This document shows, one piece after another, positions 15,191-24,064 of a DNA stretch of 24,273 nt. Source of the DNA: a virus; IMG/VR virus record IMGVR_UViG_3300035070_002714, positions 1 to 24,273 of that record; one strand, given 5' to 3'. Under the pieces are notes generated by a model. It had not been told where the DNA came from and made no database searches. It was given only the letters and a program-made list of their open reading frames with translations. The position numbers and the translations under genes are program-made. How positions within the stretch are numbered: the stretch's first letter is position 1; every line of letters begins with the position of its first letter.

Positions 15191-15247
15191 TTGAAGCGGT
15201 TTTTTGGGGGTTTTGCTGTTTTACTGTGTTTTCTGGTAAAAACGGCC

Positions 15248-15270
15248 TTTTAGCTGTAAATAAGCTAAAA
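15248..15270. other. Hairpin before the tandem repeats
   Basis: TTTTAGCT (15248-15255) and AGCTAAAA (15263-15270) form an eight-pair stem with a seven-base loop. It may be a weak terminator or a structural element of the putative origin region. Confidence 0.4.
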
Positions 15271-15290
15271 ATTTATTCTGCAACACAGCA

Positions 15291-15540
15291 GAGCACGACG
15301 CTGCGCAGAGCGGCAAGCTGCGCATTTTAGAGCAGAGCACGTCTCTGCGCAGAGCAGAGCACGACGCTGCGCAGAGCAGAGCACGTCTCTGCGCAGAGCA
15401 GAGCACGACGCTGCGCAACTGAGCAGAGCACGACGCTGCGCAACTGAGCAGAGCACGACGCTGCGCAGAGCAGAGCGCTACGCTGCGCAACTGAGCAGAG
15501 CACGACGCTGCGCAGAGCAGAGCACGACGCTGCGAACCGG
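15291..15540. repeat. GC-rich tandem repeat array, ten 22/25-base units
   Basis: Units begin GAGCACGACGCTGCGC at 15291, 15335, 15357, 15379, 15401, 15426, 15451, 15473, 15498 and 15520. The standard unit is 22 bases, ending AGAGCA. Three units (15401, 15426, 15473) are 25 bases and end AACTGAGCA. The first is degenerate and stretched, and the last is truncated. Two units (15335, 15379) have TCTCT for CGCT, which creates a perfect 12-base palindrome CTCTGCGCAGAG. Units abut without spacers, so this is not CRISPR. Open frames through it on the reverse strand only read the repeat. It could bind an initiator or terminase, or serve as a recombination site. Confidence 0.9.
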
Positions 15541-15663: not shown

Positions 15664-15692
15664 TTGTGTGAACACCCATAACAGGGTACACT
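15664..15692 (+). promoter_or_regulatory. Candidate promoter of the NUMOD4-HNH gene
   Basis: TTGTGT (15664-15669) and TACACT (15687-15692) are separated by 17 bases, 30 bases before the ATG at 15722. The -10 box is good and the -35 box moderate. Confidence 0.45.
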
Positions 15693-15721
15693 GTAGTCCA
15701 CCAACAAGAGAGGCAACTAAA

Positions 15722-16258
15722 ATGTGGAAAACTGTAACGCTAAACGAAAAATATGAGGTGTCAGACAAAGGAGAGGTGCGTAACGCAAAAACCAAACAAG
15801 TATTGCGCCTAACAGTCAATAAGTATCCTCAAGTGAGTTTGCTGTACCCCCAACGTAAAAGTAAAACCCACGTAGTCCACCGCCTAGTGGCTTTGGCTTT
15901 TATTCCTAACCCTAACAACGCACCAGAAGTTAACCACATAAATGGGATTAAGACAGACAACAACATTAGCAACCTTGAGTGGGTCACACGTAAAGAGAAT
16001 ATAGCCCACGCAATAGCAATGGGGTTGAATAAGAGTGTAGGGGAAGAGTACATCCAAGCGCAGCTAGAGTATGCAGTACAAGCAACACCTGCACATTTCG
16101 GTACTAGTGTGGGTTTCGTTATGTTTGGTGTGAGGGATTATAGAAAAACAGGTATGCTGAGTACTTCCGTCCATAACTGTATTAATCGACCACCACCAAA
16201 ACTTAAAGCACGTAGAACGTGTAACGGGTACTTCCTTGATGCGATATCCATTTTTTAG
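15722..16258 (+). CDS. NUMOD4-HNH homing endonuclease
   Basis: This 178-residue protein starts at ATG 15722 with GAGAGG upstream. The longer frame from 15668 lacks a ribosome site and would start within the promoter. The N-terminal NUMOD4 DNA-recognition motif is visible: WKTVTLNEKYEVSDKG, then VRNAKTKQVL. The HNH nuclease part follows: VVHRLVALAFIPNP, then NHINGIKTDNNISNLEWVT, with the typical His, Asn and NLEW residues. The C-terminal part (residues 100 to 178) has a further possible DNA-binding segment. It lies alone between the repeat region and the small terminase gene. Homing genes often settle near packaging genes, and some HNH proteins assist terminase, but the NUMOD4 architecture favours homing. 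Confidence 0.88.
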   Translation: MWKTVTLNEKYEVSDKGEVRNAKTKQVLRLTVNKYPQVSLLYPQRKSKTHVVHRLVALAFIPNPNNAPEVNHINGIKTDNNISNLEWVTRKENIAHAIAMGLNKSVGEEYIQAQLEYAVQATPAHFGTSVGFVMFGVRDYRKTGMLSTSVHNCINRPPPKLKARRTCNGYFLDAISIF

Positions 16259-22297: not shown

Positions 22298-22315
22298 CTA
22301 CACAGTGTAGCTATT
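22293..22315. terminator. Bidirectional terminator-like palindrome between convergent genes
   Basis: AATAGCTACAC (22293-22303) and GTGTAGCTATT (22305-22315) are perfect inverted arms around one A. The palindrome contains the stop codons of both the scaffold gene and the inverted HNH gene. It is followed by TACTTTTGCTT on the forward strand, so it probably ends transcription from at least the rightward side. Confidence 0.7.
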
Positions 22316-22876
22316 ACTTTTGCTTCTGTTAACTGACATTGGCAAAATCTGTAGGTTTGTGTGTACGTGAAGACCCGACACAAGCTTACCTTTTAGCGGT
22401 ATCATGTGGTCTACGTCGAATCCTTTAGGGCATTGGGCGTAGACTTGTCGTATAGCGTCCATGTCTGCCCATGCAGGAGTTTGAGCCTGTAGTCGTTTTA
22501 TGTGATCTCTTGCTTTAGCTCGCACTTGGGGGTCGTTTGCATACCTTTCTTTATTCCACACACTTATCCGAGCGCCATACCGCCCTGTGTATTTAGGCCA
22601 TGTCTCTTTAGATTCCGCTTTCGTACACTCTTTACATTTATGTGAGATAGTTTTCAGCTTTTTATAGTAGCCGCTTCTCGGCTTCAATACCTTACATACA
22701 GGACATACCTTTTCGGTCACTGGCGGCAGACCGTGTACACCGCCTGTAGGAACATACGCAGCTTTAGCCTCAGCCTTTAACCTTTCTTTGTTGGCTTCAT
22801 ACCACGCTTTGCGTGAAGCTCTGCACTTCTCTTTGTTCTCTTGGTAGTATTTAGCATCTCTATCTTTTCTGTTCAT
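22298..22876 (-). CDS. HNH endonuclease with N-terminal zinc-ribbon-like cysteines
   Basis: This 192-residue protein is inverted between scaffold and major capsid genes. Its start, ATG 22876, has GAGGT eight bases upstream. The first 45 residues are highly charged (MNRKDRDAKYYQENKEK). Two CxxC pairs, VCPVCKVLK and HKCKECTK, form a likely zinc site. The C-terminal HNH signature is FDVDHMIPLKGKLVSGLHV followed by HTNLQILPMSVNRSKSN, with D-H, the N in TNLQ, and the final N-R-x-K segment. Orientation against the virion operon and separation of the two genes fit a mobile homing endonuclease inserted upstream of the capsid gene. Confidence 0.88.
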   Translation of the reverse strand: MNRKDRDAKYYQENKEKCRASRKAWYEANKERLKAEAKAAYVPTGGVHGLPPVTEKVCPVCKVLKPRSGYYKKLKTISHKCKECTKAESKETWPKYTGRYGARISVWNKERYANDPQVRAKARDHIKRLQAQTPAWADMDAIRQVYAQCPKGFDVDHMIPLKGKLVSGLHVHTNLQILPMSVNRSKSNSYTV

Positions 22877-23037
22877 TTTACTTGACCTCAGTATCGTAGG
22901 GGTTTATGGTTATATTACATAACACTTTTCAAGACGTGTCCCAGCCTCGGTAGCAGACAAATAGTTCGGAGAAAGGTTTATAGAAAACTCAAGCTAGATA
23001 TTGGCCTGATTAACACTTTTTATTAACCCTATCATTA

Positions 23038-23052
23038 ACTGTCATAGACAGT
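23038..23052 (+). promoter_or_regulatory. Hairpin directly upstream of the capsid ribosome site
   Basis: ACTGTC (23038-23043) and GACAGT (23047-23052) form a six-pair stem with a three-base loop, just before AAGGAA (23055-23060). It may control access of the ribosome or mark a processed 5' end of the capsid mRNA. Confidence 0.45.
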
Positions 23053-23098
23053 ATAAGGAACTATTATCGCATTTGCTAACTCATCCATCTCGGACATC

Positions 23099-24064
23099 AT
23101 GGCCACAACAATTGCATCTCGTACTAAGAAGATAGCAGATAACGTGACCTCAAACAACGCCCTTCTAATGAAAATGAAGAAGAAAGGACGCATTAAAACT
23201 GTGTCTGGTGGCGAATACATCATGCAAGAACTCTCTTTTGCTGAAAACACCAACGCTGGTTGGTATTCAGGTTACGATCTATTGCCAGTTGGCGTTAGTG
23301 ATGTAATCAGTGCAGCAACCTTCGATTACAAACAAGCAGCCGTACCTGTCATCATTTCTGGTTTAGAAATGCTGAAAAACTCAGGTAAAGAACGCATGAT
23401 CGACTTGATGGAATCTCGTTTAGAGGTTGCAGAAGCGACTATGGCTAACTTGATCACTGGCGGTATCTACTCAGATGGTACAGCAGCAGGCGGTAAGCAG
23501 ATTGATGGTTTAGAAGCCATGATTCCTTTAGACCCAACAGCAGCACCTTACGGTGGTATTGATGGGGCAGCTTTCCCTTTCTGGCAGAACCAGGTAAGCG
23601 ACAACACAGCACTTGACGGCTTAGACCCTACTCAAATCCAAGGTTTCTGGAATGAGCTTTGGGCTTCATTGGTTCGCGGTCAAGATCGCCCTGACTTAAT
23701 TATGACCGACACGACTGTATGGAATGCTTACATAGCTTCTTTACAAGCTCAACAGCGTTTCAGCAACACTGAATCAGCGGATGCGGGTTTCGCAACTGTT
23801 AAGTTCATGGACGCTGACGTTTGTTTGGATGGTGGTATCTACAACGGTAACTCAGGTTCAGGTGCGCCAGCAGGCACAGCCTTCTTCTTGAACACCAAGT
23901 ACATGCACTACCGTCCACATGCAGACCGTAACATGGTAAGTCTATCTCCTAACCGTCGTTACTCAACTAACCAAGACGCAGAAGTGCAGATTCTTGGTTG
24001 GGCGGGCAATATGACTTGTTCTGGTAGACAGTTCCAAGGTCGTTATGACGCAGTAGGCGTATAG
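23099..24064 (+). CDS. Major capsid protein
   Basis: This is at least 321 residues of a phage major head protein. It shows the family pattern ATTIASRTKKIADNVTSNNA, then GRIKTVSGGEYIMQEL, WYSGYDLLPVGVSDVISAA, FDYKQAAVPVIISGLEML, a YSDGTAAGGKQIDGLE segment and a conserved end with LGWAGNMTC. The listed start is the only canonical ATG, but it has no good ribosome site. In this family the N-terminus continues upstream, like MAFANSSISDI before this Met. That text is present in frame back to 23066, where ATC stands six bases behind AAGGA (23055-23059). TAA at 23054 closes the frame, so the true start may be non-AUG (332 residues). Codon choice is more regular than in neighbours, as expected for an abundant protein. 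An HK97-type fold is expected from gene order. Confidence 0.92.
   Translation: MATTIASRTKKIADNVTSNNALLMKMKKKGRIKTVSGGEYIMQELSFAENTNAGWYSGYDLLPVGVSDVISAATFDYKQAAVPVIISGLEMLKNSGKERMIDLMESRLEVAEATMANLITGGIYSDGTAAGGKQIDGLEAMIPLDPTAAPYGGIDGAAFPFWQNQVSDNTALDGLDPTQIQGFWNELWASLVRGQDRPDLIMTDTTVWNAYIASLQAQQRFSNTESADAGFATVKFMDADVCLDGGIYNGNSGSGAPAGTAFFLNTKYMHYRPHADRNMVSLSPNRRYSTNQDAEVQILGWAGNMTCSGRQFQGRYDAVGV

Follow-up and report, generated by a model that had tools for sequence, protein, structure and literature searches.

A probable ATC start codon for the major capsid gene of a phage and a close match in a second phage

Introduction

Where does translation of the major capsid gene begin in the virus whose 24,273-nucleotide record, IMGVR_UViG_3300035070_002714, is analyzed here (the entire stretch is referred to below as the window)? 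The capsid frame reads ATT ATC GCA TTT GCT AAC TCA TCC ATC TCG GAC ATC ATG (I I A F A N S S I S D I M). Between the TAA at 23054 and the ATG at 23099 it contains no ATG, GTG or TTG, leaving the ATG at 23099 as the earliest canonical start available to it. Non-canonical starts are established for cellular genes including infC, the gene for IF3, whose start codon is ATT in E. coli and, in Streptomyces, ATC, and Streptomyces sigR, that starts with GTC, both of which are repressed by IF3 (PMC5472188). A literature search returned no report of an AUC or AUU start for a phage major capsid gene.

Results

The protein encoded by the frame matches PHROG 9953 (major head protein) over residues 3-327 with an E value of 4.6e-105 in a profile search, and the best Foldseek matches of its predicted model (mean pLDDT of 70) are the capsids of Mic1, A-1(L), lambda and T7, with probability 1.00 and TM scores of about 0.4-0.56. 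The full-length profile match and the HK97-type fold place it among the HK97-fold major capsid proteins of PHROG 9953. Features of the locus are collected in Table 1.

Table 1. Positions of features at the capsid locus, in window coordinates
Feature	Position	Strand	Basis and remarks
HNH / endonuclease VII-like free-standing nuclease gene	22298..22876	-	PHROG 1035, E 3e-15; L001 and L010 lack it
Promoter-like TTGACC-17-TATGGT for the capsid transcript	22882..22910	+	Consensus scan only; relatives have promoter-like hexamers at the equivalent place
Leader RNA hairpin TGTC-[CCAGCCTCGGTAGCA]-GACA	22937..22959	+	Covariation of the stem in 24 leaders; no stem at control sites
24-base leader block identical in L010	23031..23054	+	Sequence comparison
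Hairpin ACTGTC-ATA-GACAGT directly 5' of the Shine-Dalgarno site	23038..23052	+	Folded; identical in L010
In-frame TAA	23054..23056	+	Rules out an earlier start
AAGGA, Shine-Dalgarno site	23055..23059	+	Separated from ATC by six bases (23060-23065)
ATT, adjacent alternative near-cognate start	23063..23065	+	In frame with capsid; probably leader
ATC, inferred start codon	23066..23068	+	Relatives have ATG (104) or GTG (5) at the aligned codon; ATC also in L010
Major capsid protein gene (HK97-type fold)	23066..24064	+	Start codon ATC, 332 aa; PHROG 9953 match, homologues start at the aligned codon
ATG, internal Met12, not the start	23099..23101	+	Relatives with an upstream ATG start have L/I/M/V at position 12

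In order to locate the start we have compared homologues of 42-92% identity from IMG/VR, where at least 596 are found, and from phage records. Removal of duplicates left 111 comparable starts and, as a few rows share a contig, about 110 distinct homologues, 104 of which start with ATG, 5 with GTG and 2 with ATC. Nearly all of these starts fall exactly at the codon aligned with ATC 23066, the few distant ones lying within one or two codons of it, and the N-terminal pattern of the family, M-[A/S/P]-F-[A/P]-N...-[A/S]TTI, begins at the window's ATC. A first-pass annotation of the window had recognized a typical family N-terminus reaching back to ATC 23066, had tentatively placed the true N-terminus there and had proposed an alignment of homologous N-termini as a check; the alignment bears it out, with start methionines at ATC and not at MATTI. 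The letters likewise confirm what it had read around the start, AAGGA six bases ahead of ATC and a TAA at 23054 that blocks any earlier start. With an AUH codon at the homologous start position, a ribosome site before it and no canonical start there, the gene is a candidate for near-cognate initiation.

The duplex of AAGGA with the anti-Shine-Dalgarno sequence is calculated at -6.2 kcal/mol against a family mean of -7.25, and both the site and its spacing resemble those of relatives. None of the 111 starts compared has a ribosome-site region more open than that of the window, where the unpaired probability is 0.68 against a mean of 0.49. This openness is absent from the other ATC phage, L010, and is therefore not a shared compensation. 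A better ribosome site as compensation for a poor start codon was accordingly rejected, the Shine-Dalgarno strength being ordinary and the extreme openness confined to the window.

The second ATC phage, L010 (IMGVR_UViG_3300037285_000002), has a capsid protein 85% identical to that of the window, encoded by a gene that is 76% identical, and its start region reads cattaactgtcatagacagtatgggagact ATT ATC GCT TTT GCA AAC. Since ATT ATC recurs at the equivalent place, the pattern is not a matter of chance. Codons 2-11 differ at 11 bases between the two phages and yet at only 3 residues, each at a position that varies in the family; when the same number of changes was placed at random, as few residue changes and no stop were obtained in 0.2% of simulated trials (P = 0.002). 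The stretch ahead of ATG 23099 has thus been kept as protein, and codons 2-11 are under purifying selection in both phages.

These comparisons bear directly on the shortened coat protein that the first-pass annotation had allowed for, starting at ATG 23099 and lacking 11 residues. The codon has in its favor that it is the window's first canonical in-frame start, but it lacks a good ribosome site, as the annotation had already remarked, with tcatccatctcggacatc directly 5' of it. Residue 12 is Leu, Ile, Val or Met in the family, and because many relatives that start at an upstream ATG also have Met at this position, the ATG at 23099 is an ordinary internal methionine. L010 has no Met there, nor any in-frame ATG, GTG or TTG before residue 34, and the residues that would be lost are conserved in the family and include the first part of an N-terminal helix predicted, with modest confidence, at residues 6-28. 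A start at 23099 is disfavored, and we regard it as quite unlikely.

The C at 23068 might instead be an error of sequencing or assembly, as had also been proposed, or belong to a dead mutant allele. With several hundred homologues in IMG/VR, it would be no surprise if one of them had a start codon misread by chance, and nearby inverted repeats can raise error rates. However, an independent contig, with a gene that diverges from that of the window at 24% of its bases, also has ATC, and the neighboring genes are open in both the window and L010. An error is disfavored, and this explanation as a whole seems very improbable.

The first-pass annotation had left the choice between ATC and ATT undecided. 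A non-AUG start remains the best reading of the gene, and a likely one, with ATC favored; ATT 23063, which would add one residue, is the less likely part of that proposal. ATT too is a near-cognate start, as in E. coli infC (PMC5472188), and ATT ATC is conserved in both phages. Against this, no more than three bases separate ATT from AAGGA, the start of homologues aligns with ATC, and ATT also precedes a genuine ATG in L063, L031 and L039, for which reason it is probably leader. Initiation at ATT is, in our estimation, unlikely.

How two phages came to share ATC can be judged from the leader. The block listed in Table 1 is specific to them, in that its 19-base core was found in no IMG/VR contig besides L010, and L001, L002, L011 and L063 have different hairpins at the place of the window hairpin. 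In a tree built from 44 capsids the sister group of the window is L001/L246, which start with ATG (support 100/98), while L010 lies elsewhere, and two changes are required to place ATC on the tree. Over the 45 bases 5' of the start, on the other hand, the match of the window to L010 has a z score of 14.6 versus 4.2 for L001, even though the window's gene is closer to that of L001 (85%) than to that of L010. Recombination of a short block comprising leader and start is the simplest account of a leader so discordant with capsid tree and gene identities, and two or more phage lineages have probably shared the block in this way. It would be an odd coincidence for ATC to have arisen by separate mutations in two leaders that happen to match.

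A promoter-like CTGTCA-17-TATTAT spans the ATT-ATC start in both phages (23039-23067 in the window, 2977-3005 in L010). An internal promoter here, giving a short-leader mRNA that would use ATG 23099, was considered and rejected, the site being a consensus match only and L010 having no downstream ATG. An upstream open reading frame with a frameshift was likewise rejected: no ATG in any frame occurs in the window leader between the promoter-like site and 23098, and an out-of-frame ATG in L010 is not conserved. A search of the window for a special initiator tRNA found no tRNA gene, and a phage-encoded one was dismissed as well.

The inverted homing endonuclease that the first-pass annotation had noticed just upstream is indeed present as the minus-strand HNH / endonuclease VII-type gene of Table 1. 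Its further suggestion, that insertion of this gene had altered the start, is disfavored. The gene lies after the stop of the upstream gene and ahead of the capsid promoter-like site at 22882, the window leader from 22924 onward is collinear with those of endonuclease-free relatives, and L010 has ATC with no endonuclease gene between the upstream gene and capsid; for these reasons the endonuclease did not create ATC by landing on the start. The window has a second free-standing nuclease gene, of the NUMOD4-HNH type, at 15668-16258 (+) before the terminase genes, just ahead of which a tandem-repeat-like region at 15220-15490 (-) carries an in-frame repeated CAASCSAQLRSVVLCSAQRRALL.

Two further explanations involve such endonucleases. 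In the capsid gene of mycobacteriophage LittleE an intron and an inverted endonuclease are arranged in this manner (PMC3706429), and the capsid gene of another relative, L272, has apparent introns; a self-splicing intron could similarly part a true ATG exon from the rest of the window's gene. Yet L010 has ATC with no insert, the leader from 22924 is collinear with those of ATG-starting relatives, and neither an intron nor any other catalytic RNA of Rfam matches the window. With the leaders of the window and L010 both collinear with relatives, the gene does not belong with intron-interrupted capsid genes, and splicing is extremely improbable. Alternatively, the start region may be a target of a homing endonuclease, the change to ATC conferring resistance at a cost in translation and the tracts spreading by co-conversion. 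Endonuclease genes do lie upstream of capsid in the window and in L272, and leader and ATC have moved between lineages; however, the nuclease gene is about 190 bases from ATC and was inserted upstream of the promoter-like site, and in L010 no endonuclease lies close by. This proposal, to which we give little credence, would explain why ATC persists and is compatible with initiation at AUC.

Pattern scans of IMG/VR for more near-cognate starts produced only L010 (FAN class) and L272 (IMGVR_UViG_3300037506_000013; ATA, FPN class), with no further ATC start, and scans of genomes yielded none. The L272 homologue begins ATA GCG TTT CCA AAT on the reverse strand around 6981, with a TAG four codons before ATA, purine-rich sites upstream and an HNH endonuclease gene ending a few tens of bases before ATA. 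It may be another natural near-cognate case, or else a decayed or misread gene, and because its frame is broken up by two apparent introns, of which the second contains an endonuclease-like frame, we give it little weight.

The 5' leader of the major capsid gene contains, in addition, an RNA hairpin with a stem of 3-7 bp, freely varying in sequence, and a nearly invariant 15-base loop, CCAGCC[U/A]CGGUAGCA (CCAGCC[T/A]CGGTAGCA as DNA). It lies roughly 80-130 bases before the gene, after the promoter-like site and an ACTTTTC box in near relatives, and occurs in the window and in the leaders of L001, L007, L009, L010, L014, L016, L019, L024, L025, L063, L100, L257 and others. A search of four long genome records found a single copy in each, and some other leaders have two copies in tandem. 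Across 24 distinct copies 82.5% of stem cells are paired, and the covariation score of 0.92 falls to at most 0.21 when the partner is slid by one to three bases. At some 65 other places in IMG/VR where the 15-mer occurs by chance the stem is missing, with mostly 0-1 pairs. No match to the hairpin was found in Rfam, and it is likely to be a new regulatory RNA of phages, part of the capsid transcript. As phages with ATG and with ATC starts both have it, it is not the cause of ATC. In more distant relatives (L033, L034, L035, L041, L043, L045) the capsid leader has tandem hairpins of other kinds, whose conserved loops differ from this one (..TCA.GCG.. is an example).

Discussion

The best explanation of these data, and one that we hold to be probable, is direct initiation by fMet-tRNA at AUC 23066. 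Ribosomes would bind AAGGA just behind the small hairpin, and the initiator tRNA would pair with AUC in the P site with a mismatch at the third base, giving a 332-residue product that begins fMet-Ala-Phe-Ala-Asn-Ser-Ser-Ile-Ser-Asp-Ile-Met; we infer, then, that Met is the first residue. ATC would have arisen from the ATG of the family through one third-base change and been inherited with the short leader block that at least two phage lineages appear to have exchanged.

Several points count against initiation at AUC. IF3 discriminates against this start codon, ATC starts are seen in only two genomes, and the open start region of the window has no counterpart in L010. Hecht and co-workers reportedly found in 2017 that initiation at near-cognate AUH codons is weak in E. 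coli. Such weakness is hard to reconcile with a coat protein of which each virion requires hundreds of copies. Enough of it might be made thanks to a strong promoter, a host whose discrimination is lax or changes in IF3 late in infection, although these are guesses. It is also conceivable, if doubtful, that the AUC start and the hairpin leader form a regulatory cassette passed between phages, tying coat synthesis to initiation fidelity (the level of IF3 or the state of the ribosome) and so holding back or timing late coat production. Were this so, the expectation of an optimal start for the most abundant virion protein would be reversed.

Like the window capsid gene, infC has a near-cognate AUH start behind a ribosome site, a single third base away from AUG, but infC is a cellular gene that regulates itself, its weak start serving for feedback, whereas the gene considered here encodes the main coat protein of a phage. 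The sigR gene is similar in being a bacterial-type gene with a non-canonical start; it differs in using GTC, in encoding a sigma factor kept at a low level and in having a start proven by experiment. Mx8/Mx9, Stenotrophomonas phage BUCT555 and the IMG/VR relatives in PHROG 9953 belong to the window's family, with similar gene order and an N-terminus of the form M-x-F-x-N...ATTI or TTTI, yet they start with ATG or GTG. LittleE shares an opposite-strand endonuclease near an HK97-type capsid gene, but there it resides in a spliced intron and not, as in the window, upstream of a promoter-like site with no intron found.

Since the starts recognized by gene finders are in practice limited to ATG, GTG and TTG, genes of this sort are annotated too short or missed; in L010 such programs would trim more than 30 residues from the coat protein. 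Should near-cognate initiation on this highly expressed structural gene be confirmed, it would call into question the notion that AUH codons serve only low or self-limited expression, and would provide a natural high-output system for studies of start-codon fidelity.
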